A DNA stretch of 20,392 nt from a virus. The DNA is taken from positions 1-20,392 of IMG/VR virus record IMGVR_UViG_3300046011_009311, one strand, 5' to 3'. Made by a program: the position numbers and the translations under genes. Each line of letters opens with the position of its first letter. The stretch's first letter is position 1. The notes under the pieces were generated by a model. It made no database searches and was not told the DNA's origin. It worked only from the letters and a program-made list of their open reading frames with translations. Below, in pieces: positions 1,351-14,898 of this stretch.

Positions 1351-1360
1351 ATATTTATAA
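1351..1360 (+). promoter_or_regulatory. Candidate late regulatory motif ATATTTATAA (copy 1)
   Basis: Lies in the 31-base gap after the sigma factor gene, 12 bases before ATG 1373. The same 10-mer recurs before 4086 and 6711, with a one-mismatch copy before 14233. The + strand contains TATAAAAA (6 to 7 of 8 matches to the T4 late promoter TATAAATA), and the minus strand contains the exact TATAAATA core. Orientation and role are inferred. Confidence 0.45.
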
Positions 1361-1372
1361 AAAACAATACAT

Positions 1373-1711
1373 ATGAGTAATTTAGAATCAAACGTATTTG
1401 GTAAGAAAAAATTCTCGGACATTCTTAAGGAAATTTACGAAAACCAAAAGAAAAAAGAGACCCAAATCACAGCTTTGATAGGTGAGTTAAAACCCCTTAT
1501 TAATGACATTGGTGACGCTACTTTGATTGTTCCTTTAATCAAGGAATATATGGAATTAGGTATCAAAAATGATGAGCAATTAATTAAAATGGCTACTATC
1601 ATCCAACGTGCCTTAGCTACAGGTAAATCAGAAGATGAAGGATTTGGAATGACTGAGGATGAAAAAGCACAATTGTTATCTGAGGTAAAAAAATTCAACC
1701 CTAAAGATTAA
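1373..1711 (+). CDS. Small helical protein of unknown function
   Basis: 112 residues, strongly helical by composition. There is a basic N-terminal segment (KKKFSDILKEIYENQKKKE, about 11-29) followed by regularly spaced Ile/Leu (LIGELKPLINDI, LIVPLIKEYMELGI) and an acidic C-terminal tail ending NPKD. There is no membrane segment, cysteine pair or catalytic motif that I can identify. It is the first gene after the candidate late motif, and its stop shares a base with the start of the spike gene (TAATG), so it is probably expressed with the baseplate genes as a small structural or assembly factor. Its length is close to that of the T4 late co-activator gp33 (112 aa), but I see no sequence feature that supports that identity. 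Confidence 0.75.
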   Translation: MSNLESNVFGKKKFSDILKEIYENQKKKETQITALIGELKPLINDIGDATLIVPLIKEYMELGIKNDEQLIKMATIIQRALATGKSEDEGFGMTEDEKAQLLSEVKKFNPKD

Positions 1712-2958
1712 TGTCACATAAATTTGGATTTCCTTCAATGACCAATAAGGCCTTAAATGATAAGGCTAAAGGGGGAGGGTCTGGTAAAACGTCTAATGAA
1801 GAATTTATAGTTCGTGTAAGTGATATTAATTTAGATCCTTCACTTGGTTTTACAAAAATAGGAACTATTAGTGGAGAAAAAGTAAGTAGTAAAGGAGTAT
1901 TAACTGGAAAAACATATGTTGATATTCTTCCAAGTGACCCATATAAAAAAGCATTTCCATTAGTTAACGAATATGTTAGAGTTAAGTATGTAATTGCCCC
2001 CAATACCATTGGAGGTCAATTCGTATATGAAGGACCTATTTCATTGTACGGAGCAGTTTCCCCCAATGTGAATCCAAATCCTACTCCACTAGTTAACCCA
2101 ACCCCAACATCTCAAAAATTAAATTATTCTCAAGTAGAAAGTGGGGGGTATAACGTACAAAATAATAATCTTGTTTCTTTAGATTTTAATTCTCTTTCCA
2201 ATCCGGACCGAGCTACATTTGTTGAAAAAAGTAATATTCATCCTTTATTACCATTTGCTGGAGATGTAATTTATGAAGGTAGATGGGGTAATAGTGTACG
2301 CTTAGGTAGTACAGCTAAAGTAACTGGTAATTATTCTAACTCTTGGTCTTCATTTGGAAATAATGGAGATCCTATCACTATACTTATAAATGGTCAAAAT
2401 CCTAAAGCTAGTAGCTTTGGGGCTGAACCTATTACTGAAAATATATCTCAAGATTTATCTTCAATATATTTAACCTCTTACCAAAAAATTCCATTTAGTA
2501 TAGCAAATGAGAATTTTGTTTCATATACTACCCCACCAACCACACCTGCTCAATACGCTAATCCTCAAATTATCTTTAATTCAGATAGGGTTATAATCAA
2601 TGCCAAAAACGATAGTGTATTAATTAGTGGACAAAATTCAGTAGGTATTTCTTCAAACGGAAGTGTAAATATTGAATCCACAAGTGAAATAAATATTACT
2701 AGTAAATTAACTCGTTTAGGCAATAAAAATGCAAATCAATCAGTTTTGCGAGGTGATGAGACAGTAGAATATTTAAAAATAATACTTAATGAATTACAAA
2801 ATATAGCTGAGGCTTTAAAAGTAGTCCAAGATTGGCCTAGTGGAGCCCCTTCACCCAACCCAGTTGTTTTAACAACCGCAAATTCAGCACTTAAAGTGTT
2901 TGAAAGTGTTTACAATCAAATTGATAGTGTAAAATCTAAAATTGTTAAAACAGCATGA
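1711..2958 (+). CDS. Baseplate spike / hub protein, gp5- or VgrG-like with beta-helical C-terminal region
   Basis: Likely the membrane-piercing spike at the tail tip. Residues about 15-120 are beta-rich and could form the OB-like domain typical of gp5/gpV spikes. A Pro/Asn linker follows (about 115-135). Residues 180-215 contain GDVIYEGRWGNSVRLGST, a segment I associate with phage baseplate proteins. Residues 286-335 form a run of short alternating strands (IIFNSDRVIINAKNDSVLIS, then GISSNGSVNIESTSEINITS), as in the triple beta-helix of T4 gp5 and VgrG. A helical C-terminal tail ends the protein (about 345-415). It has 415 residues against 575 in T4 gp5, and I see no region corresponding to the gp5 lysozyme domain. 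The start is fixed by the TAATG junction with the previous stop; the end overlaps the next gene by ATGA. Confidence 0.72.
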   Translation: MSHKFGFPSMTNKALNDKAKGGGSGKTSNEEFIVRVSDINLDPSLGFTKIGTISGEKVSSKGVLTGKTYVDILPSDPYKKAFPLVNEYVRVKYVIAPNTIGGQFVYEGPISLYGAVSPNVNPNPTPLVNPTPTSQKLNYSQVESGGYNVQNNNLVSLDFNSLSNPDRATFVEKSNIHPLLPFAGDVIYEGRWGNSVRLGSTAKVTGNYSNSWSSFGNNGDPITILINGQNPKASSFGAEPITENISQDLSSIYLTSYQKIPFSIANENFVSYTTPPTTPAQYANPQIIFNSDRVIINAKNDSVLISGQNSVGISSNGSVNIESTSEINITSKLTRLGNKNANQSVLRGDETVEYLKIILNELQNIAEALKVVQDWPSGAPSPNPVVLTTANSALKVFESVYNQIDSVKSKIVKTA

Positions 2959-4067
2959 TTTATTCTATAAAAGGAACAGTTGTAAATGGTCAATCTCAAG
3001 ATCCAATTAAGGGAGCTAATGTAAAAATTTTACCTTTAAATTTTGTATTTACTGACACTGACGGTAATTTTACTATTACTGGAGATACTCCTGAAAGTGG
3101 AAGTTTATCTTTAGATATAACTGCTATTGGGTATGAATCTATAGAACCACCTTTATATAAAGGAGATGGTGCTCTAAAAACTGATTTAGGAGTTTTACAA
3201 CTTCAACCTACAATTTCTTCTTTAGCTCAAGATAAACTTAAATCTACTCAATTAAGTAAAAATCAAATTAAAGAGCTTTCTAAAAGCAAAAAAGATATTT
3301 CATACTATGCTGAGGAAAAATTATCTAATCAAGTTAATACTTTAAAGAATACTTTAATCCCTGCTATACTAACTATGGTTGCAGGGTTTGGTATAACTAA
3401 ACTCTCAGAATATAAAGCTGAACAATTACCTAAACTTTTAGATCAAGCAGTTTGCCCTACACAAGCTGAATTAACTGATTTAATTAACCGAAAGAATAAA
3501 CTAGTAAAACAATTAACTAATAGTTTAAAAATTATTGATACAACTACTAAAGTATTAGGAGTTACCCAAGGTGTTATTGCTATTCTTCAAATTACTTTAA
3601 CCATAGCTGAAACTAACCCTCCAGTAACAAATCCTATCCCCTCAGGAGTTGAAAAAAGATTAGATAAAACCATTGCTACACTATCTTCAGTTAATGCTGG
3701 GATATTATCTATATTAGTCATTTTAAAACAAGTATTAGCCCAAGCTATTCAGTTACTTAATTTACTTGATCAATTAGTACAAAAATGTTATCCTGATGCT
3801 GATCAAGAAAGAATCTCAGCAGAATTGACTGCATTAACGATTCAACAATCAACTCAATTATCTCCTGTAGTTACAAATGTAAATGGATTTGAAATGGGGG
3901 TTGAAACAGAAAATACTACAAATACTTTAAAACGTAGAAGAGCACTTGCACGTAACAAACAAGGTGTGGTAATGTTAAAAGGAGAATGGTCATTTAGCTC
4001 AATTGACCAAATATTAATAGATGAACTAGTATTTTACATTCAGCAAAATGATTTAAAAGCTGACTAA
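2955..4067 (+). CDS. Structural protein with N-terminal carboxypeptidase-regulatory-like domain and long helical body
   Basis: Residues 3-75 read as a carboxypeptidase-regulatory-like (transthyretin-type beta-sandwich) domain. The features are IKGTVVNGQSQDPIKGANV, then a TDTDGNFTITGDTP turn, then LDITAIGYES. This is the arrangement seen at the N termini of Bacteroidota TonB-dependent outer-membrane proteins. The rest (about 85-330) is helical: Lys/Ser/Leu-rich heptad-like stretches plus hydrophobic helices near 130-145, 203-218 and 248-275, then a basic LKRRRALARNKQ segment and a compact C-terminal end. No signal peptide is present. Overlap with the spike gene (ATGA) suggests a baseplate or tail-tip partner. 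The hydrophobic helices could insert in membranes or pack in a bundle. Domain call fairly confident, function unknown. Confidence 0.65.
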   Translation: MIYSIKGTVVNGQSQDPIKGANVKILPLNFVFTDTDGNFTITGDTPESGSLSLDITAIGYESIEPPLYKGDGALKTDLGVLQLQPTISSLAQDKLKSTQLSKNQIKELSKSKKDISYYAEEKLSNQVNTLKNTLIPAILTMVAGFGITKLSEYKAEQLPKLLDQAVCPTQAELTDLINRKNKLVKQLTNSLKIIDTTTKVLGVTQGVIAILQITLTIAETNPPVTNPIPSGVEKRLDKTIATLSSVNAGILSILVILKQVLAQAIQLLNLLDQLVQKCYPDADQERISAELTALTIQQSTQLSPVVTNVNGFEMGVETENTTNTLKRRRALARNKQGVVMLKGEWSFSSIDQILIDELVFYIQQNDLKAD

Positions 4068-4071
4068 CTTA

Positions 4072-4081
4072 ATATTTATAA
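4072..4081 (+). promoter_or_regulatory. Candidate late regulatory motif ATATTTATAA (copy 2)
   Basis: Starts 4 bases after the stop at 4067 and ends only 4 bases before ATG 4086. The + strand reads TATAAACA next to the start. If it is a late promoter read on the + strand, the transcript would begin at or very near the ATG, giving an almost leaderless message; this tells against a simple promoter reading for this copy. Confidence 0.4.
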
Positions 4082-4085
4082 ACAT

Positions 4086-4433
4086 ATGAAAATTGACGGA
4101 TTAAAAAAATTAATTAAAGAAGCTGTACGAGAGGCAATTCAAGAGGAATTAAAAGATATTCTTTTAGAAGCAGTTCGTACTCCAAAAACACTTGTAAAGG
4201 AATCCTTTACCTCAATTCCTGTACCTCCCCAACCAACAAACCCCACATTTACTCAACCTACAATGGATACCCGAAAAGCATATGCTGATATCATGAATGA
4301 AACTATGATGAGTTTTACTTCTAAAGATGCTCAAGTTCCATTTAAACCACAAGTAAGTGACCCTATAAATGGTAATTTAGGTGCCGGAGAAGTAGGAATG
4401 GATCAAATTATGGCCTTAATGAATAGTAAGTAA
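4086..4433 (+). CDS. Small conserved-looking phage protein of unknown function
   Basis: 115 residues. The N-terminal 30 residues form a highly charged amphipathic helix (LKKLIKEAVREAIQEELKDI). A Pro/Thr-rich linker (about 43-60, several Pro, Gln and Thr) and a less ordered Met-containing C-terminal part ending QIMALMNSK follow. There is no membrane segment or enzymatic motif. It is the first gene after a copy of the candidate late motif, and its stop overlaps the gp25 start (TAATG), so it is expected to be made with the wedge proteins. A scaffold, adaptor or internal-protein role is possible. The N-terminal helix resembles that of the kinase gene at 19623 (L-x-x-L-[IL]-K-E), which I mention only as an observation. 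Confidence 0.7.
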   Translation: MKIDGLKKLIKEAVREAIQEELKDILLEAVRTPKTLVKESFTSIPVPPQPTNPTFTQPTMDTRKAYADIMNETMMSFTSKDAQVPFKPQVSDPINGNLGAGEVGMDQIMALMNSK

Positions 4434-4837
4434 TGGCATTTAGTCCTCAACAAATAGCACCTATTGACTTTGATACAAGTACAGCTGTTGGGGTTAATCT
4501 TCCCTTTAGTGGCCCCGCTGTTTTTCTTTCAAACTATACAACAGCAGAAGCCACTAAAAATAATCTTATTAACTACTTCCTTACAAACCCAGGAGAAATA
4601 CCTATGAATCCTACTTTTGGGGGTGGTTTACGAACATTTATATTTGAACAAATAACTGCAGATAATTTAAATTTTCTTAGAGAAGATGTTAACAATAAAA
4701 TATCTGTTTATTTTCCTAATATTATAGTAAATGATCTATTAGTAACAGGCCAATCAGATACTAATCAAATCACAGTTACACTTAAATACTCAGTATTAAA
4801 CACTAGTATCAATGATACTATAACAATTGAATTTTAA
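4433..4837 (+). CDS. 25: Baseplate wedge protein gp25 (GPW/gp25 family)
   Basis: Sheath-initiating component of the contractile-tail baseplate, which in T4 contacts gp6 and nucleates the tail sheath. The family signature is plain at residues 53-70: PGEIPMNPTFGGGLRTFI, matching the P-G-E-x-P-x-x-P-x-F-G-x-G-L pattern of gp25/GPW proteins, followed by FEQIT. The C-terminal half alternates beta strands (INDLLV-type, ITVTLKYSVL). At 134 residues it is almost the length of T4 gp25 (132). The ATG overlaps the previous stop by one base (TAATG). Two bases separate its stop from the gp6 start, which preserves the 25-6 adjacency usual in contractile injection systems. Confidence 0.93.
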   Translation: MAFSPQQIAPIDFDTSTAVGVNLPFSGPAVFLSNYTTAEATKNNLINYFLTNPGEIPMNPTFGGGLRTFIFEQITADNLNFLREDVNNKISVYFPNIIVNDLLVTGQSDTNQITVTLKYSVLNTSINDTITIEF

Positions 4838-4839
4838 AA

Positions 4840-6684
4840 ATGGCTAACGTAAATAGAGATATAAAATACATAAATCGTGATTTTTCTAGTTTTAGACAAA
4901 GACTAATAGAATTTTCTAAAACCTATTTCCCGTTAACCTATAACGATTTTACCCCTGCATCCCCAGGTATGATGTTTATAGAACAAGCATCATATGTGGG
5001 AGACGTTTTAAGTTTTTATTTAGATAACCAATTTCAAGAAACATTTGTTCAATATGCTCAACAAACAAATAATGTTTATGAGTTAGCATATATGTTTGGT
5101 TATAAACCTAAATTATCAACTGCTGCACAAGCTGTAGTTGATGTATATCAACAAGTACCTTCTAAATTGGTTCTTGGAGAATATATTCCTGATTATGATT
5201 ATGCTTTAACTGTAGGAGAAAATACTACTATAAGTTCTCTTAATGGTGGTAATTTCCTCATCCAAGATAAAATTGATTTTTCAGTTTCAAGTTCCCAAGA
5301 CCCAACTGAAGTAACCATCTATCAAATTTCAGGAAATAACCCCCAATATTTTCTTTTAAAGAAAAGTAGAAAAGCAATTTCTGCTACTATTAATGTTCAA
5401 TCATTTAATTTTACAGATCCTATTCCGTTTAATACTATTCAACTTACTGCTAATAATTTTCTTAAAATATTAGATGTTACCGATTCTGATGGTAATATTT
5501 GGTATGAAGTAGATACTTTAGGTCAAGAAATGGTATTTAATACTATAAAAAATACTAATGTAAATGACCCAAATTCTAATGGAGATACTTCTTATTTACT
5601 TCGTCTTAAAAAAGTAGCAAGACGTTTTACTACTAGAGCTATTTCTAATACCAATATTGATTTACAATTTGGTTCTGGAGATCCTCTTAACGTTACTGAA
5701 GAAATTACTCCAAATGCCGATAATGTAGGGATTGGTTTACCATTTTCTCAAGATAAATTAACAACAGCATATTCACCTACAAATTTCCTATTTACAGGAA
5801 CTTATGGTATTACTCCTTCAAATACTACTTTAACAGTAAGATATTTAACTGGTGGTGGTGTTTCATCAAATGTTGCCGCAAATTCTCTTACTACTATAAA
5901 CCCATCTCAAACTAAATTTAATAATATAAATTTAGACTCTACTTTAGCAAACTATGTATTTAATTCATTAGCTTCAAATAATACTGAAGCTGCTAGTGGA
6001 GGTAAAGGTGGAGACAATATTGAAGAAATCCGTCAAAATACTTTAACATTAATAGCCTCTCAAAAACGTTCAGTTACAGCAGATGATTATTTAGTTAGAG
6101 CTTTAAGTATGCCTTCCGATTATGGATCTATTTCTAAAGCATTTATTGAACAACCTAAATTAACAGATAATCAAGTTTCAACAATTGAAACACTTAATTT
6201 ATATGTTTTATCTTTAAATGCACAAGGACAACTAGATTATGCTACTGAAACTTTAAAAAATAATTTACGTACCTATATGTCCCAATATAGAATGATTGGT
6301 GACAATATTGAAATTAGAGATGCGTTTATTATCAATATTGGTGTTGATTTTGAAATCATAGTACTTCCTGAATATAATAACAATGAAGTTCTATTAACAT
6401 GTGTCACTGCTTTACAAACCTACTTTAACTTAAATAATTGGCAAATTAATCAACCAATTTTACTTCGTGACCTCTATATTCTCCTTGACAAAATTTCCGG
6501 AGTTCAATCTGTTAAAAATCTTTCTATTTCAAATAAAGCAGGAACCACTTCAGGATATTCACAATATGCTTATGATATTGCCGGAGCAACTCAAAATCAA
6601 GTAATTTATCCTTCATTGGATCCTAGTATTTTTGAAGTAAGATACCCTAACACTGATATAAAAGGTAAAGTAGTTCCTTTATAA
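4840..6684 (+). CDS. 6: Baseplate wedge protein gp6 (gpJ-like)
   Basis: Central wedge protein; in T4, gp6 forms the iris ring joining neighbouring wedges and changes conformation when the tail contracts. Strong N-terminal signature: INRDFSSFRQRLIEFSKTYF (11-30), then a P-A-S-P-G-M-M-F-I-E segment, then SYVGDVLSFYLDNQFQET and YELAYMFGYKPK. This matches the gp6/gpJ pattern in which a helical N-terminal domain holds D-x-L-x-x-Y-x-D-x-x-x-x-E. The middle carries the gpJ-like RQNTLTLIASQKRSVTADDY motif (about 398-417), and the C-terminal part has alternating strands and helices. It has 614 residues against 660 in T4. Gene position after gp25 agrees. Confidence 0.92.
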   Translation: MANVNRDIKYINRDFSSFRQRLIEFSKTYFPLTYNDFTPASPGMMFIEQASYVGDVLSFYLDNQFQETFVQYAQQTNNVYELAYMFGYKPKLSTAAQAVVDVYQQVPSKLVLGEYIPDYDYALTVGENTTISSLNGGNFLIQDKIDFSVSSSQDPTEVTIYQISGNNPQYFLLKKSRKAISATINVQSFNFTDPIPFNTIQLTANNFLKILDVTDSDGNIWYEVDTLGQEMVFNTIKNTNVNDPNSNGDTSYLLRLKKVARRFTTRAISNTNIDLQFGSGDPLNVTEEITPNADNVGIGLPFSQDKLTTAYSPTNFLFTGTYGITPSNTTLTVRYLTGGGVSSNVAANSLTTINPSQTKFNNINLDSTLANYVFNSLASNNTEAASGGKGGDNIEEIRQNTLTLIASQKRSVTADDYLVRALSMPSDYGSISKAFIEQPKLTDNQVSTIETLNLYVLSLNAQGQLDYATETLKNNLRTYMSQYRMIGDNIEIRDAFIINIGVDFEIIVLPEYNNNEVLLTCVTALQTYFNLNNWQINQPILLRDLYILLDKISGVQSVKNLSISNKAGTTSGYSQYAYDIAGATQNQVIYPSLDPSIFEVRYPNTDIKGKVVPL

Positions 6685-6688
6685 TGCC

Positions 6689-6698
6689 ATATTTATAA
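6689..6698 (+). promoter_or_regulatory. Candidate late regulatory motif ATATTTATAA (copy 3)
   Basis: Starts 4 bases after the gp6 stop and 12 bases before the end of the gap preceding ATG 6711. The 26-base gap also holds a second + strand TATAAATG string that runs into the start codon. The same 10-mer precedes 1373 and 4086. Confidence 0.45.
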
Positions 6699-6710
6699 TA
6701 AAATATATAA

Positions 6711-7835
6711 ATGGCTGTATATAAACTATTTCCTACTCAAGACGCCACTCTATATTCTGCTTATCCTACAATGAACACAGGGTTAGATGCTATTTTAGAA
6801 GCATCTAATAAACTCGGTTTAGATGGGACCCCGGATGTATCTAGATATTTAATTCAATTTGACACAAACGAAATTCAAGATGTCATTAACAATAAAATAT
6901 CTGGAGATAGTTATGCTGTTTATTTAAAAAACTTTATAGCAGAAGCTCAAGGTCTTAATCAATCTACAAAATTAGAAATTCGCCCTATTGCTCAAGGATG
7001 GAATAATGGTACTGGGTATACTTTAGATTCCCCCATTGTTACCGATGGAGCTTCTTGGGGATTTTCCTCATTTTCAGGCTCAAACCCATGGCTTTTAAGT
7101 GGTAGCAATTCAGGAGGAACATATACAAGTTCATTCAATTCAACTTACACTACCCAAGGTGGTGGTAACTGGTATACTGCTTCAAATTATTTAGTTACTG
7201 AATCTTTTGCTTTACGTGATGTAAAAGATATTGAAATTAATACTAGTAATACTGTAAATGCTTGGTATAGTTCATCTATTCCAAATTATGGTTTTTTAGT
7301 TAAACTTACAGGTTCACAAGAATTTAATACAAGTGAATATATTCAACCTATATTTAAATTTTATAGTGTTGATACAAATACAATATATCCTCCAACTTTA
7401 GAATTTAGATGGAGAGACTACACAACAGTATTAACTGGATCAGCTACAGGAAGTATAGTTTCAACTTCCAATATTAAAATGTCTCTAGCTGAAAATCCTG
7501 GTGTTTTTTTTCCTGAAAGTGTAAATAGATTTTACATTAATGTAAGTCCATTATATCCTACTAGAACATATCAAACATCATCTTTATACACTAATTTAAA
7601 TTATTTACCAACTGCTTCATACTATGCAATAAAAGACTTGGATACTAACGAGTATGTTGTTAACTTCGATAACAATTATACTCAAATTAGTGCCGATTCA
7701 ACTGGTAATTATTTTGATGTTTATATGAGTGGTTTAGAACCTGAAAGATATTATAAAATCCTAATTAAATCCATCATCCAGGGTTCTACAATAATATATG
7801 ATGATAGCTATTACTTTAAAGTTATTAACGGATGA
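6711..7835 (+). CDS. Baseplate or tail structural protein with DNRLRE-like domain
   Basis: 374 residues, beta-rich. Residues about 5-235 resemble the DNRLRE-type beta-sandwich found in surface-attached and tail proteins: a QDATLYSAYPTMNTGLDAIL start, an SRYLIQFD strand, LEIRPIAQGWNNGTG, a W-rich GASWGFSS segment and NYGFLVKLTGSQE near 195-207. The order (DAT-x-Y, R-x-L-I-x-F-D, W, then NYGF-L-x-K) is the basis for the call. A second beta domain (about 245-374), ending in a YYKILIKSIIQGS strand pair, could be fibronectin-like. No signal peptide or catalytic residues are seen. It lies between gp6 and the giant tail protein and overlaps the next gene by ATGA, so a peripheral wedge or fibre-attachment role is likely, perhaps binding sugars; the binding is speculative. 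Confidence 0.6.
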   Translation: MAVYKLFPTQDATLYSAYPTMNTGLDAILEASNKLGLDGTPDVSRYLIQFDTNEIQDVINNKISGDSYAVYLKNFIAEAQGLNQSTKLEIRPIAQGWNNGTGYTLDSPIVTDGASWGFSSFSGSNPWLLSGSNSGGTYTSSFNSTYTTQGGGNWYTASNYLVTESFALRDVKDIEINTSNTVNAWYSSSIPNYGFLVKLTGSQEFNTSEYIQPIFKFYSVDTNTIYPPTLEFRWRDYTTVLTGSATGSIVSTSNIKMSLAENPGVFFPESVNRFYINVSPLYPTRTYQTSSLYTNLNYLPTASYYAIKDLDTNEYVVNFDNNYTQISADSTGNYFDVYMSGLEPERYYKILIKSIIQGSTIIYDDSYYFKVING

Positions 7836-8194
7836 GTGAAAGCGTAAACTTACAAAAACAAGTATATGATAAAAGACAATATACTAAAGTTATAGATACG
7901 TCTTTTAAAGAATTAGGTGTTCAAACTGTTCAAGAAAGAATAGCAGTACAACCAACTACTGAAGAGTTCTTTGGCCTTTACAATGAACTTTTTTATAATA
8001 TACCCGAATTAGGCGCAACTAATTCACACGAATATTTGATTAAAACAAGTAGTGAATATATTAATTTTGATGCAAACCAAGAAGAAATAACTGCTTTGCA
8101 GGATGAAATTGCTCAATTAAGAACAGATTTACTTGATGCTCAAAGACAAATAGTAGAATTGCAAACAGGAACAACATTAGCTAATCCACAATAA
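7832..8194 (+). CDS. Small protein with C-terminal coiled coil, probable baseplate component
   Basis: 120 residues. The middle contains EEFFGLYNELFYNIPELGAT followed by SHEYLIKTSSEYINF, a segment I have the impression of seeing in other phage tail clusters but cannot name. Residues about 78-110 are a good coiled coil with heptad-spaced Ile/Leu (ITALQDEIAQLRTDLLDAQR). The start overlaps the preceding gene (ATGA) and the stop overlaps the giant tail gene (TAATG), a tight three-gene coupling. A trimerising adaptor between the preceding protein and the giant protein is plausible from this position, but function is not established. Confidence 0.7.
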   Translation: MSESVNLQKQVYDKRQYTKVIDTSFKELGVQTVQERIAVQPTTEEFFGLYNELFYNIPELGATNSHEYLIKTSSEYINFDANQEEITALQDEIAQLRTDLLDAQRQIVELQTGTTLANPQ

Positions 8195-11100
8195 TGGCAG
8201 CAGAAATTGTACAAATAGACACCCAAAACTTTACTTCACAAACTTATGGAGGTCAAGATACAAATTTAATATCTACTTTTGAAGTAAATACATCTTTATC
8301 TTCAAGTAGTTATATTGAATATTTTGTGTACGATAATAATCAAAATATATTATCTACAGATTACAATTTTACCCAATACACAGTTTTAGCTGATGGTCAA
8401 TCAGCTGGATCAAATAATACTGTTTCTCAAATTATAATTGATCCTGAAAAATCATTAATTAACAGTGGTTTTGATCAAGGAGAATACATTACATACTTTA
8501 ATTTCTTTAATAAACAAATCGGTTCAGAACTTCAACAACTTTATATTGTTGAAATTTCATCTGATCGTACTGAAATTCGTTTAGATAGTACTTCATTAAC
8601 CGATTTAGATATAGTTGAACAAGCTAATTCTTTAATTCAACAAAGGGAAGATAGCCCATATTTTTTAGATTTTTATCTTAATTTTGGAGACAATCAATTA
8701 GCTATTGCTAATAATATCCAATTAGATAATCAAGATCCTACTAACCCAACTATATTAATTAAATTATACGAGGCATTACCTGAAGAATTTGATGTTAATT
8801 CTACTTTATGGGTTGTAACTTTAGTTGAAGAACCTATAGCATATCAAGTTACTTTCCCTTTAGAGCCTATAGAAATATTAGATACAGTTAATTTAAAAGG
8901 TCCTAATTTTAATCTAGAATTAAAAGACCAAATTAATAATTCTACAGTATCTTTAGATTATACCGCTTTAACAACTACTTCATTAACCAGTTCCTACAAC
9001 CAATTAAGTAGTTTACTTGAAGAAAAAGAAATAGATATTAATATAGATTACACAGATTTTAATGAGTTTGTTCATTTTAGTTCTGTTGAAGCTCGTTTAG
9101 AAAATTTTTATTATAAAATGAGCTTATTAGAAGATTATTCTTCTTCTATTGCTGTTTTAAACACTACTACAAACAATGATCCAAGTGCTAGTCTTGCGGT
9201 ATATGAATCTTTAATAAATAATGTCATAACTAATTTTGATGGTTACGAATATTACTTATACTATAATAGTGGTTCATGGGCTTGGCCAAAAACAACATCC
9301 CAACCCCCATATCAATTAGCTACAACAGGAAGTGCTTTAGTTACTAATTGGTACGCTAATATTTCTCTTTCCGCTTCTAATTTTGATAACACTAACCAAA
9401 ATAATCTTTACTATTCAATCCCAGAATATTTAAGAAATGATTCATTAAATGACCCATACCAAATGTTTGTGGAAATGATGGGTCAATTCTATGATAATAT
9501 TTGGATTTACTATAAAGATGTTACTCAAAAATATAACGCAGATAACCGTTTAGAATATGGTGTTTCAAAAGATATAGTAGCCGATGCTATACGTGATTTT
9601 GGAATTAAATTATATCAAAATAATTTCTCAAACGACGATTTATATACTGCATTTTTAGGTTTAACTCCTGGTGGGGCTTTATTTCCGTTCTCTAATATTA
9701 CAGGTTCACTTCCAACACCAAGTGGATTTGAGTATATTAATACTTTAATATCTGCCTCTAACGATTATATGCCGTTAGATGACGTAAATAAGTCGCTATA
9801 TAAACGCATCTATCATAACCTGCCGTACCTATTGAAGGCAAAAGGTACATTACCTGGTCTGCGCACTTTAATTACCTCATATGGTATTCCTGATACAGTA
9901 TTAAGAATTAATGAGTTTGGAGGTAAAGATAAATCAAACACAAACGATTGGGATGATTGGGAAAATGTATTTAATTATGCCTATTATAGTACTGGAAGTA
10001 ATTTACTTGCTACAAATTGGGTTCTTAACTCAAATTGGAATTCGGCAAATAACGTTCCTGCTACTTTAGAATTTAGATTTAAAATTCCAAGCCTGTCTAC
10101 TATAAGTGGATCCTCAGGAGTAAATCTTTGGAATACAAATACAAATGCTAGAATTAGATTACGATATACTGGTTCTGGACTTACAACAGGCTCATATTCA
10201 GGTTCAATTATTGATCCATATTACCAATATGCTACTTTAGACTTTTCCCCAGATTTTTCTGGGAATCCATCTCTTTCAGCAAGTGTGTATTTACCATTTG
10301 CAAATGAAGGATGGTGGTCAGTAATGGCTACTCGTAATGGAACTAATTTTACTTTATATGCAGGGAACAATGTTTATGAAGGAGGTGAAAATGGAACTCA
10401 ATTAGGATTCTATGCTACTTCTTCTACAACCGTAAGTAGCACCCCTTGGACCTCAGGAAATGCCTCTCGATTTACTCAATTTGGTGGGGCAATATATTTC
10501 CAAGAGATACGTTATTATAATACCGTATTAAGTGAAAGTGTATTTAAGGATTATATTATGAATCCTTCTTCAACTGAAGGAAATTCAATTAATAGTTCTC
10601 CTAACCAACTTGTATTTAGATTACCTTTAGGAAATGAATTATATACTGGATCTATTTCAGTACACCCTAAAATTACAGGATCTTGGACTACAACTAGTTC
10701 ATTTGTTGGAAATAGCAGTGCTTCATTTACTTTAACTCCAACATTTGTTCCTAATACAGAATATTTCTTTTTAGATCAACCTGTAGTTGGTATTAAGAAT
10801 GCTGTATCTGATAAAATACGAGTAGAAAATAGTGTTATACCTTCCGGAAACACTTTATCTCCATTTAGATCATTAGCACAAAATTTAGCAGCTAGTCAAA
10901 GCTATACTGCAAATACTAATTTACTTGAGGTAGCATTTGCACCACAAGATGAAATTAATGATGATATTATATCTCAAATTGGGTATTTTAATATAGGTGA
11001 ATATATAGGTGATCCAAGACAACGCTCATCCTCAGCTACTTCATATCCTGATTTAGATCGTTTACGTAACGAATATTTCCAAAAATATACTTCAAACTAT

Positions 11101-14100
11101 GACTTGAACGATTATATTCGTTTGATCAAATATTTTGATAACTCGTTATTTAAAATGATCAAAGACTTTGTACCTGCACGTACAAGTCTTGCTTCGGGTG
11201 TTGTTATTAAACAAACACTTTTAGAAAGAAATAAATACCCACAACCTCAAGTAGATATAAATTCTACAATATCATATTATGGAAGTGGCTCTACAAATAA
11301 TATCCCATTTAATTTCCAAGATATTTCAGTTTCTGGTACTGTAGCCCCACAATGGAACGCTTACCAACCAGGAACTATAGAAAATTTTAGTGGTGGTGCT
11401 GGAGGTACATTTGAAATGTTTAATGGAGTTGATACTTCACCATATGGTCCTAATGGATTAGGTCCTGAAAATATTTATTTTGTTACTCAAAGTTGGTATG
11501 AAAATATCCAAACTATTTCAGGTTCAGTATTAGTATTACATGATTCTCAAGATGAATTTTATGATGGTGAATTTAGCGGATCTAATATAACTGTTACTAC
11601 ACAAAGCTTAGCTCAACCATATCCTTTAGATTTAGTTGAAGCCAATTATAATATTATAATATATTCCATGCCTTTATGGGATTTACCTTTACAACAAATT
11701 AGTTCAACTTATTTGTCATTTCTTCAAAATGAAGTTATTCCAAGTCAATATACAGATCCTGATGTTGGAGATTTAGTTGTAATAGCTCCTTACCCATATA
11801 AACAAGATACTGTTCCTTCTAATCCATTTGTAAAGATAAATAAAGTAGATCTTAATGGAACTGACTTTGAAATCCCTTTAGGACAATTAAATCAACTTAT
11901 CATTAAAAATCTTCCTTATACTATTATAGGAATTTCAGAATTTACTAACCATTATTTATATCAATTAGCCCCAAATTCAGTAGCTGCAACTATATCAACC
12001 TCAGGTCCTTTACCTACAGAAATTAAAAATTATAGAGTTAGTGCTTCTAGAACTACTTCTCTTACAGTTAATAATGGAAATAATGTAAGAGCAATTTATG
12101 ATACTTCCCTATATAATCCTAACAATTATTACACTGCTTCTAATGGTTATTATACGGTTGATACTATACCTAATGTAGAACTTTCACTTACCATGAGTGG
12201 TACTGCAATAGCTACTGGGGCTACAGCTGAAATGGTTTTATTTTATAAAATAACAGGATCAGATGTAGGTCAAGCTGCTCAAACTATTGATACCTCTACT
12301 TCATATATTGTAACTACTGGAACCCCAATAAATTTTGTCTATTCAGGAACCTTTTCTGTGGGTACAGGTCCTTCAGTTCATCCGTATTGGATTCCATTAT
12401 TTAACTTACCTGAGGGGATTTTATCTCCAGGTGCTAGTTTATTTACTGAAATCCAAAATAACAATGATTTTTATACTGGAAATCTTCAAATAACAGGTTT
12501 AAATATATCTGTAAATCAAAAATTCCCAAATACGGCTTCTAATTCTACTTCTGTAATATTTGAACCGTATATAGCACTTCCTAATTATTATAATAGTAAT
12601 TATAATCCTTTAATTAACAATGCTGAATTAGAAAGATTAAGCTCTACTTACCAAGCAGTAGATTATTCCTCAGGTATAACTACTCCAACTAACTATTTAC
12701 AATTAATTAGTGGAAGTGCACTTAAAGCTGCTGTTCAAGATTCAAATTATACTTCAAAACGAGTAATTTATCCTCGTTATAATGGAAGTAAATCTACATC
12801 TCAATACTTAAATGTTTGGACCCCTGGCGATTTAGGAACATATGGAAAATTACCTTCTGTAGATAGTTTAAAAACAGCAGTAGCATATTGTGATGGTATA
12901 GGAGGATGGCCCCCAGAAAAAATGAACGCATCTGCAATATTTGTTAGATACTTAATTAAATCTGATGGAACTGTAATTGTTCCTAATACAACAGAAAATT
13001 CTCTTTATGATATACAAGGTAACTTTGAATCAGGAGAAAATATGTTAATCCAATATAAATCTACAGGAAACCAAGTTTCAGCCCTCAGAAAAGTAATTCG
13101 AGGAGGATCAGGAATTGAACCTATTTTGTATACTCAATATGGTCAAGCTCCATCTGCTTCTTGGAATACTACTATGAGTTTTGAAGATATAACCCCTTCC
13201 CCAGGAGGAAGTGTAGGAAATTATTCAGTTTCTTATAAAACTACAGGTGTATTTGCTTCAATCCCAGCTAACACTAACACTAAAATTTTATTTAATAATG
13301 TAGTTTATGGAAGTGTTAGCCTAGTAAGTAATTCATACACTATTCCTCTTTCTGCAGTAAATGAAGGTGTTTCTTTAAAATTAAGTTCTAAACTTCAATA
13401 TGTTAATTTAACTGGGGGTGTTGTGAATCTTACAGTAAAAATGTATAAAAATTCTACTTCTTGGTACAGTGAAGATTATACTATCCCTGCAAATTCACTC
13501 ACAGGAAATATAGATTTTCTTAACAAAGCTATTCCTCTACTCAACCCAGCAATATTTACTAATGGAGATCAACTTTCTATCTATGTATTTTGGTCTTCTC
13601 CTACAGGTGCTACTTCACCATTTTCAGTTGGAGGAAGTCTTATCGTTTCCCAATATCCAGCTTATACTAATCCAGTAACTTCTTCTGGTGCTAATTCTAT
13701 ATGGGGTTGGCCTAATAAATCTAGTTATCCAAATGTTATTACTTCTTCAAATCCTACCTTAACTCAATTGTATGGAGATGAAAATGTTAAAATGACTGAT
13801 ATTATTGGTTCTGGATTCAATAATATATCATTACCATGGTCATTAGAATATGGAGATGAATTTAGATTTGAAGGAAGAGAAGACTATACTTATCAAGTAA
13901 CCAAAATATTTGCCCCATATACTACTGGATCAGGAGATAGAGTATCTCAAACAGGTTCTCTTGAAATCCATTTCAACCAACCTCTTCCAGTCTCAGCTTC
14001 AACTTCGAATTTTAATCTAGATCATTTTATTATTAGAAGATATGTTGATAATCCCTCGCAAATAGTAATGGAAGGATTTAAACCAAATAATTCTCAAGGA

Positions 14101-14196
14101 CCATATATTGTACGACCTGAATATGTATCACCTGAGCTAAATAAATCAATTGATCAATTTATTTTAGATCTCACGCAGAAAGGGTTGTTATCATAA
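8194..14196 (+). CDS. Giant (2000-residue) baseplate/tail protein with LamG-like domain
   Basis: The largest gene in the window. Conserved-looking core segments are separated by beta-rich inserts. Residues 410-470 hold FVEMMGQFYDNIWIYYKDVT; residues 536-569 hold YKRIYHNLPYLLKAKGT and ITSYGIPDTVLRINEFGG, a motif I associate with phage tail/baseplate proteins (NLPxLLKxKGT...YGIP). Residues about 610-795 form a LamG/concanavalin-like jellyroll (LEFRFKIPS start, GWWSVMATRNGTNFTLYAG, IYFQEIRYYN end). Residues 953-1016 hold a second core block (DYIRLIKYFDNSLFKMIKDF, then VPARTSLASGVVIK). The last 130 residues look like another conserved end (LPWSLEYGDEFRFEGRE). By position after gp6 it may occupy the place of T4 gp7 (1032 aa) with added lectin-like domains; that equivalence is inference. 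No frameshift is seen across the 6 kb. Confidence 0.75.
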   Translation: MAAEIVQIDTQNFTSQTYGGQDTNLISTFEVNTSLSSSSYIEYFVYDNNQNILSTDYNFTQYTVLADGQSAGSNNTVSQIIIDPEKSLINSGFDQGEYITYFNFFNKQIGSELQQLYIVEISSDRTEIRLDSTSLTDLDIVEQANSLIQQREDSPYFLDFYLNFGDNQLAIANNIQLDNQDPTNPTILIKLYEALPEEFDVNSTLWVVTLVEEPIAYQVTFPLEPIEILDTVNLKGPNFNLELKDQINNSTVSLDYTALTTTSLTSSYNQLSSLLEEKEIDINIDYTDFNEFVHFSSVEARLENFYYKMSLLEDYSSSIAVLNTTTNNDPSASLAVYESLINNVITNFDGYEYYLYYNSGSWAWPKTTSQPPYQLATTGSALVTNWYANISLSASNFDNTNQNNLYYSIPEYLRNDSLNDPYQMFVEMMGQFYDNIWIYYKDVTQKYNADNRLEYGVSKDIVADAIRDFGIKLYQNNFSNDDLYTAFLGLTPGGALFPFSNITGSLPTPSGFEYINTLISASNDYMPLDDVNKSLYKRIYHNLPYLLKAKGTLPGLRTLITSYGIPDTVLRINEFGGKDKSNTNDWDDWENVFNYAYYSTGSNLLATNWVLNSNWNSANNVPATLEFRFKIPSLSTISGSSGVNLWNTNTNARIRLRYTGSGLTTGSYSGSIIDPYYQYATLDFSPDFSGNPSLSASVYLPFANEGWWSVMATRNGTNFTLYAGNNVYEGGENGTQLGFYATSSTTVSSTPWTSGNASRFTQFGGAIYFQEIRYYNTVLSESVFKDYIMNPSSTEGNSINSSPNQLVFRLPLGNELYTGSISVHPKITGSWTTTSSFVGNSSASFTLTPTFVPNTEYFFLDQPVVGIKNAVSDKIRVENSVIPSGNTLSPFRSLAQNLAASQSYTANTNLLEVAFAPQDEINDDIISQIGYFNIGEYIGDPRQRSSSATSYPDLDRLRNEYFQKYTSNYDLNDYIRLIKYFDNSLFKMIKDFVPARTSLASGVVIKQTLLERNKYPQPQVDINSTISYYGSGSTNNIPFNFQDISVSGTVAPQWNAYQPGTIENFSGGAGGTFEMFNGVDTSPYGPNGLGPENIYFVTQSWYENIQTISGSVLVLHDSQDEFYDGEFSGSNITVTTQSLAQPYPLDLVEANYNIIIYSMPLWDLPLQQISSTYLSFLQNEVIPSQYTDPDVGDLVVIAPYPYKQDTVPSNPFVKINKVDLNGTDFEIPLGQLNQLIIKNLPYTIIGISEFTNHYLYQLAPNSVAATISTSGPLPTEIKNYRVSASRTTSLTVNNGNNVRAIYDTSLYNPNNYYTASNGYYTVDTIPNVELSLTMSGTAIATGATAEMVLFYKITGSDVGQAAQTIDTSTSYIVTTGTPINFVYSGTFSVGTGPSVHPYWIPLFNLPEGILSPGASLFTEIQNNNDFYTGNLQITGLNISVNQKFPNTASNSTSVIFEPYIALPNYYNSNYNPLINNAELERLSSTYQAVDYSSGITTPTNYLQLISGSALKAAVQDSNYTSKRVIYPRYNGSKSTSQYLNVWTPGDLGTYGKLPSVDSLKTAVAYCDGIGGWPPEKMNASAIFVRYLIKSDGTVIVPNTTENSLYDIQGNFESGENMLIQYKSTGNQVSALRKVIRGGSGIEPILYTQYGQAPSASWNTTMSFEDITPSPGGSVGNYSVSYKTTGVFASIPANTNTKILFNNVVYGSVSLVSNSYTIPLSAVNEGVSLKLSSKLQYVNLTGGVVNLTVKMYKNSTSWYSEDYTIPANSLTGNIDFLNKAIPLLNPAIFTNGDQLSIYVFWSSPTGATSPFSVGGSLIVSQYPAYTNPVTSSGANSIWGWPNKSSYPNVITSSNPTLTQLYGDENVKMTDIIGSGFNNISLPWSLEYGDEFRFEGREDYTYQVTKIFAPYTTGSGDRVSQTGSLEIHFNQPLPVSASTSNFNLDHFIIRRYVDNPSQIVMEGFKPNNSQGPYIVRPEYVSPELNKSIDQFILDLTQKGLLS

Positions 14197-14205
14197 TATT
14201 TATTA
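14196..14205 (+). promoter_or_regulatory. Candidate late regulatory motif, variant copy ATATTTATTA (copy 4)
   Basis: Begins on the last base of the giant gene's stop codon, 27 bases before ATG 14233, in the largest intergenic gap of the window (36 bases). It differs from the exact 10-mer at one position. A further TATAATAC string at 14209-14216 lies in the same gap. Weaker than the other three copies. Confidence 0.35.
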
Positions 14206-14232
14206 CATATAATACACCAATAATAAAACACA

Positions 14233-14898
14233 ATGGGATATTTAAATAACCAAGTCGTAACAGTTGATGCGATTTTAACAAATAAAGGTAGAGAACTTTT
14301 AGCAAAAAATGACGGTTCATTCCGCATTACACAATTTGCTTTAGCAGATGATGAAATTGATTATACATTATATAATCCAACTCATCCATCTGGATCTTCA
14401 TTTTATGGTGAAGCAATTCAAAATATGCCTTTACTTGAAGCCTTTCCAACTGAAACCCAAATCATGAAATATAAATTAGCTACTCTACCACGTGGAACAG
14501 CTAAATTACCTGTACTTGATTTAGGCTATTCTGCAATTACCTTAGTACAAGGAGCTTCACTTGCAGTTACTCCTCAAACATTAAATTATTTAGGTAATAA
14601 TCAAACCTTTGAAACTAGTGGTTACTCAGCTACCATTTCTGATGTTCGTCTATTTAATACATTTACCGGAATTGGTATTAACACTCCAGCAGCAACTGCA
14701 GCTAATGCTTCAGTTACTTCAACTACTACGCTTGGAACTAATGTGTCAGTAACAGTAATTGGTTCTCAAATTAATTTACGTGCAACTACAGTAAATACAT
14801 TATTTGGCTCAAATACTCAATTAACTGCTACATTAACTGTTGTAGGTTTAGACAGTGGTGCTCGCCTAACAATCCCAGTTACAATTAATCAAAACTAA
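14233..14898 (+). CDS. Probable tail/baseplate structural protein, unknown family
   Basis: 221 residues in two parts. Residues 1-105 carry conserved-looking sequence: VDAILTNKGRELLAKNDGSF, then FALADDEIDYTLYNPTHPSG, then AIQNMPLLEAFP and YKLATLPRGTAKLPVL. I have the impression that this combination occurs in structural proteins of environmental myophages but cannot give a family name. Residues about 110-221 are a Thr/Val/Ala-rich beta domain (SVTVIGSQINLRATTV, LTATLTVVGLDSGARLTIPV), possibly Ig-like. There is no signal peptide. It is the first gene after the variant motif and begins a set of four peripheral tail genes. The ATG was chosen because upstream bases are non-coding and MGYLNNQVVTVDA starts the conserved part directly. 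Confidence 0.65.
   Translation: MGYLNNQVVTVDAILTNKGRELLAKNDGSFRITQFALADDEIDYTLYNPTHPSGSSFYGEAIQNMPLLEAFPTETQIMKYKLATLPRGTAKLPVLDLGYSAITLVQGASLAVTPQTLNYLGNNQTFETSGYSATISDVRLFNTFTGIGINTPAATAANASVTSTTTLGTNVSVTVIGSQINLRATTVNTLFGSNTQLTATLTVVGLDSGARLTIPVTINQN

Follow-up and report, generated by a model that had tools for sequence, protein, structure and literature searches.

The window analysed here, that is, the whole 20,392-nucleotide stretch (one strand) formed by positions 1–20,392 of the viral record IMGVR_UViG_3300046011_009311, contains a sigma-like gene on the + strand (604–1341, encoding 245 amino acids), a series of downstream genes on the same strand, and a recurrent 10-mer, ATATTTATAA, in the gaps between them. 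A scan of the entire window places exact copies on the + strand at 1351–1360 (copy 1), 4072–4081 (copy 2) and 6689–6698 (copy 3) and none on the - strand; a fourth, one-mismatch copy (ATATTTATTA) lies on the + strand at 14196–14205 and overlaps the stop codon of the preceding gene. Three exact copies and one near copy, all intergenic, is what the initial annotation had reported, and the scan confirms it; its estimate of about 110 bases for the gaps involved is also sound, as the four measure 31, 18, 26 and 36 bases (111 in total), while all the intergenic gaps of the window together amount to 195 bases.

The copies had also been described as standing directly ahead of runs of coupled genes, and this is true of the first three. 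Specifically, copy 1 precedes a run at 1373–4067 (1373–1711; the weakly DUF2345-like 1711–2958; 2955–4067), copy 2 a run at 4086–6684 (4086–4433; the gp25-like 4433–4837; the gp6-like wedge gene 4840–6684) and copy 3 a run at 6711–14196 (6711–7835, 7832–8194 and 8194–14196), the genes of each run touching or overlapping. The description fails for copy 4, which precedes a single + strand gene (14233–14898, an orthologue of gp107 of Flavobacterium phage immuto) with a further gap behind it. By matrix score, too, this copy is the weaker candidate, at 11.4 compared with 17.2–19.9 for the exact copies, copy 3 being the best at 19.9. Two database names attached to genes of the window deserve comment. 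The product of 2955–4067, in the baseplate region, has an N-terminal carboxypeptidase-regulatory-like domain (Pfam E 7e-10), and the annotation of its immuto orthologue as a RecN-type repair ATPase looks wrong for a gene in that position. Also, the GIY-YIG-like product of 17352–17888 matches homing endonucleases and a PHROGs family named NAD synthetase (E 1e-32), a name that looks misleading and that the immuto copy bears as well.

The placement of the copies is not readily produced by chance. Under a first-order Markov model, 0.0036 exact + strand copies are expected in the gaps of the window and the probability of at least three is 8e-9; when the AT-rich composition of the gaps themselves is used, the probability of three copies is 4e-6, and overall we put chance at about 1e-5 or less. 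One-mismatch matches across the window show no excess (11 observed, 16.6 expected), and hence the signal lies in position and strand rather than in number.

It is informative to examine the motif in related genomes. Viral contigs encode hundreds of relatives of the gp6-like and sigma-like proteins, and the nearest isolates by the gp6-like protein are immuto (44%), which infects Flavobacterium sp. LMO8 from the Baltic Sea, and 'Microcystis' phage Mel-JY01, the latter being more distant than immuto in its sigma protein. We read six whole records: G001 (166 kb), G002 (174 kb), G003 (106 kb), G004 (95 kb), immuto (160 kb) and Mel-JY01 (190 kb). The genes run almost without exception on the + strand (237 of 239 in G002 and 210 of 213 in immuto). 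Counting intergenic against coding copies by strand, as the initial annotation had proposed, gives 83 of 88 + strand copies between genes and 2 copies on the - strand in five genomes (G001–G004 and immuto), the opposite of a motif that is equally common inside genes, which it had named as the outcome that would speak against a promoter. By genome, the exact 10-mer occurs in gene-sense and antisense orientation at ratios of 23:1 (G001), 18:0 (G002), 21:0 (G003), 18:1 (G004) and 8:0 (immuto), although the counts from G001–G004 are not independent because these genomes have orthologous sites in common. A reversed-pattern control was itself strand-biased, since AATATTTATA shares a 9-base overlap with the motif; among 251 10-mers of the same letters, used in its place, ATATTTATAA ranks best in the five genomes by a wide margin, and those next in rank are the motif itself shifted along. 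Matches to a refined matrix are intergenic in 33 of 37, 33 of 37, 28 of 35, 19 of 24 and 22 of 22 cases, with intergenic DNA making up only 4–10% of these genomes; this matrix was trained on the genomes in which it was then counted, a bias of which the exact 10-mer counts are free. Furthermore, a motif search without a starting pattern ranks ATATTTAT first or close to first. The exact motif is confined to the lineage of the window, immuto and G001–G004. It does not occur in the 190-kb record of Mel-JY01, where the motif takes the looser form ATATTTAT (24 + strand copies between genes vs 7 on the - strand), and the late motif is absent from a 49-kb stretch (95000–144000) around the sigma gene of LR756508.1, a 484-kb uncultured phage that keeps the sigma gene (38% identity) near a gp6-like gene.

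The genes that follow the motif belong predominantly to one functional class. Where a gap precedes the gene, the motif is found ahead of 65 of 101 virion genes vs 1 of 28 genes for replication or nucleotide metabolism; the corresponding figures are 48 of 70 vs 0 of 13 in G001–G004 and 17 of 31 vs 1 of 15 in the respective regions of immuto, whose cluster of small early genes ("early" being a label from gene content and position) has it at 1 of 36. Sheath, tube, hub, tape measure, fibres and baseplate blocks all have it. No late site of its own was found for the capsid gene, nor for TerL and portal in G001–G004; these genes would need read-through from upstream. The sites themselves are strongly conserved. 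The slot before 4086 holds the exact motif in all 76 distinct upstream sequences of relatives and that before 6711 in 59 of 60 distinct relatives, while 64 of 66 relatives keep the motif within one mismatch before 1373, where the immuto copy is at 78884 and DNA similarity between the window and immuto starts exactly at the motif (1351 vs 78884). Before 14233, ATATTTATTA is kept in most relatives and immuto has the exact motif (90660). In contrast, no upstream sequence of a relative holds the motif within one mismatch where the start is coupled (1711, 4840, 14913 and 15932). The intergenic and + strand bias, together with placement at virion rather than replication genes, lends support to the original proposal that the motif is the late promoter of the phage or its equivalent.

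Aligned sites from the related genomes give the consensus [AC]TATTTATAA-NN-AAA, in which the AAA is conserved at motif positions 12–14 of the + strand; upstream of the motif, no position is conserved in 82 late sites, that is, there is no -35 box. The obvious comparison is with the late box of phage T4, TATAAATA, which is read by gp55, is also found in KVP40, takes the form NATAAATA in cyanophages and has a variant in Aeh1 (PMC2988020, PMC2984593). The T4 box, numbered -13 to -6, lies about one helical turn ahead of the start (PMC2988020), and gp55 flips A-12, A-9 and A-8 into pockets (PMC7892883). Like it, the phage motif is a single AT-rich, 8-bp, -10-like box with an AT-rich segment behind it and no -35 element, it stands ahead of virion genes in a phage that encodes a sigma-region-2 protein, and it keeps A-12 and A-8. 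Unlike T4, it has TT instead of AA at -10/-9, an extended AAA behind the box, and predicted leaders of 0 to about 20 nucleotides; neither the A-9 contact of T4 nor the T99 residue of gp55 is kept. The consensus is thus not TATAAATA or a near variant: on the + strand, TATTTATA occupies its place and shares six of its eight letters, the two differing letters in the middle being near-invariant. Profiles for gp45 and gp33 (PF09116, PF02916, PF16805) find no match in the six records, although divergent versions could escape them, and the result may reflect either true absence or poor sensitivity; immuto carries polymerases annotated as family A. Judged by sequence, the element resembles a T4-type late promoter with a changed consensus; strict membership would call for TATAAATA itself, which it lacks, and for dependence on gp45 and gp33. 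No earlier account of this motif as a phage promoter was found in the literature searched.

The orientation of the motif relative to T4, which had been regarded as a puzzle, ceases to be one once TATTTATA is taken as the + strand reading of the motif. Its reverse complement does contain TATAAATA, which raises the idea of a T4 late promoter on the - strand that makes antisense RNA. Such a promoter would transcribe against nearly all genes of these phages, and it does not explain why conservation reaches the downstream AAA on the + strand or why spacing to the + strand ATG is constrained, with the 4 bases before 4086 kept in the relatives listed. On strand, spacing and conservation we reject this reading, which we consider scarcely credible; the - strand TATAAATA is a by-product of the near-palindromy of the motif. 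A second register on the + strand, which takes its -10 box, TATAA(A/T), from the 3' half of the motif, was also rejected: its letters are less conserved, and copies lying 3–6 bases before the ATG would start RNA inside the gene.

The distance between motif and ATG ranges from 3 to more than 20 bases and is bimodal, with classes at 3–6 and 9–21, almost nothing at 7–8 and a floor of about 3. This pattern fits a predicted start 4–5 bases past the motif, in which case a message would lack a leader or carry one of about 5 bases or more. When TATTTATA is set in the T4 register, the predicted +1 is the motif end plus 5. For copies 1 and 3 the start would then be at about 1364–1365 and 6702–6703, each with a leader of about 8–9 nucleotides, and for copy 4 at about 14209–14211; for copy 2, which is 4 bases from the ATG at 4086, it would be at or adjoining the A of that ATG and, in the T4 register, the A itself. 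An almost leaderless message from copy 2, which had been anticipated, is therefore what we predict, and it is no objection to a promoter since the 3–6 class recurs in every genome. Leaders this short would be unusual given that in F. johnsoniae 87% of predicted messages have leaders of more than 10 nucleotides (PMC6847099).

The nearness of the motif to the ATG invites a different explanation, namely that it is a signal for translation initiation or another 5' mRNA signal, for example a modified form of the A-rich signal that lies upstream of genes in Bacteroidetes. The motif is AT-rich, and Flavobacterium uses A-rich upstream regions in place of Shine-Dalgarno sequences (PMC6847099). Nonetheless, its distance from the ATG varies from 3 to more than 20 bases, coupled, replication and early genes do without it, and its strongest letters are T's and A's in a fixed order rather than an A-run. 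Its relation to intrinsic terminators also argues against this explanation: the motif is present at 22 of 128 gene starts behind terminators vs 45 of 779 other starts (about three times commoner; Fisher p = 6e-5), the very places where a new transcript must start. Several of the terminator-to-ATG intervals with the motif are shorter than 40 bases, which leaves little other room for a transcript start. We consider a translation signal very unlikely.

A more serious alternative, although still an improbable one, is that the motif is a late promoter read by the main or another sigma factor of the host, perhaps with a phage activator, and not by the 604–1341 protein. The host promoter in Bacteroidetes has the -33/-7 form TTTG/TANNTTTG and is read by sigma-ABfr (PMC6847099). 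The late motif resembles it in its TA start and AT-richness, and the same host phylum is expected; indeed, of the six fixed letters in the host -7 element TAHHTTTG (PMC6847099), four are present in TATTTATA, and ATATTTA is common to the early-type and late motifs of immuto. However, the late motif has neither part of a sigma-ABfr promoter (TAnnTTTG plus a -33 element): the TTTG end is missing, T-7 and G-5 being replaced by near-invariant A's, and there is no -33 box. TAHHTTTG is not enriched between genes of G001–G004 and immuto, and the phage carries a sigma-like protein of its own. A sigma-70 scan of the window finds no more sites than in shuffled sequences.

The same genomes contain a separate, strand-specific two-box motif that is concentrated in the early gene cluster. 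In G001–G003 it consists of AAGGAAT upstream of TTTCGTATATT, with 24–32 forward copies and 1 reverse copy per genome, and it somewhat resembles an ECF-type promoter; in immuto it is AGTTGC-N18-TATATTTAGGTAT (early cluster, 60–77 kb), which, as TTG-N20-TATATTTAGG, resembles the -33/-7 promoter of the host. Early promoters thus seem to differ even between close relatives. The early-type and late sites differ sharply in their upstream sequence, with GGA(A/C) at 69 of 83 of the former vs 4 of 82 of the latter.

The candidate for the protein that reads the late motif is the product of 604–1341. A gp55-like gene ending at 1341 had been named in the initial annotation; this is right for the open frame, and the sigma identity was examined separately by profile and fold. 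Searches of Pfam and PHROGs with this protein alone give no convincing sigma match, and a PDB sequence search found nothing. In each of G001–G004 its orthologue is the only match to Sigma70_r2 (E 1e-4 to 0.02), with scores that do not reach the curated cut-off, and in G002, G004 and immuto (where it is gp118) the orthologue is the only match to phrog_234 (late sigma). With hhalign, residues 14–112 align weakly with gp55 4–105 (E 0.0012, probability 20%); in this weak alignment gp55 Y97 corresponds to an invariant Y103 and F86 to F92, while T99 faces G105 and R57 faces T63. The AlphaFold model of the whole protein is poor (pLDDT 69, pTM 0.42) and that of the gp55-like region-2 domain (residues about 19–127) is better (pLDDT 84, pTM 0.77). 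With the latter, Foldseek retrieves phage sigma factors at a probability near 1 and TM values reaching 0.74, albeit at E 0.05 and above; proteins of the gp55 type rank lower, and the PDB fold matches are mostly sigma factors at E > 1. Taken together, homology and predicted fold point to a sigma-like protein with region 2. It exceeds gp55 in length by about 60 residues, and its region 2 is followed by four or five predicted helices (151–238) that have no known relative; on the model, these C-terminal helices might replace gp33 or sigma region 4. At the C-terminus, the place of a sliding-clamp-binding motif in gp55, the last residues are hydrophobic in the family of the window and different in immuto. 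The position of the gene is also suggestive: in the window, G001, G002, G004 and immuto the first late site starts no more than about 25 bases after the end of the sigma coding sequence, and the immuto sigma gene closes a gene run at whose head the last early-type site (76215) is found.

These observations make it quite probable, in our judgement, that ATATTTATAA serves this phage lineage as its late promoter, a T4-type, -10-only promoter used on the + strand and read by a phage sigma factor. Transcripts would then start at the motif, late in infection. The sigma factor (604–1341) would be made from the operon just upstream of the first late site, bind the host core RNA polymerase and read the single box TATTTATA at -13 to -6; the A-rich stretch behind the box would melt easily, with no -35 box involved, and RNA would start 4–5 bases past the motif. 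The first late promoter to be used in this way would lie directly behind the sigma gene itself. A spacing of 3–6 would produce a leaderless message (copy 2) and one of 9–21 a very short leader (copies 1 and 3). A bolder version is that of a late system free of both clamp and gp33, in which the C-terminal part of a gp55-related sigma replaces gp33, the one-box promoter often fires at the start codon and some virion messages are leaderless; we regard this as speculative and rather unlikely in its entirety.

If the late-promoter reading is right, the promoters of an abundant and largely uncultured phage group, with immuto as a cultured relative, can be mapped, and its switch from early to late genes becomes testable as a two-box early motif, a phage sigma and a one-box late motif. 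It would extend T4-type late control to phages of the Bacteroidetes, hosts that have an unusual main sigma and whose messages, mostly leadered, lack Shine-Dalgarno signals; leaderless virion messages are predicted in these hosts. It is also worth considering the host of Mel-JY01 (PP395634.1), which is recorded as a Microcystis phage and is related to this Flavobacterium-type lineage. In its genome the Bacteroidetes promoter TTG-N17-24-TAHHTTTG is enriched between genes, 14 of 29 forward copies being intergenic where intergenic DNA is 9%, and its recorded host deserves checking.
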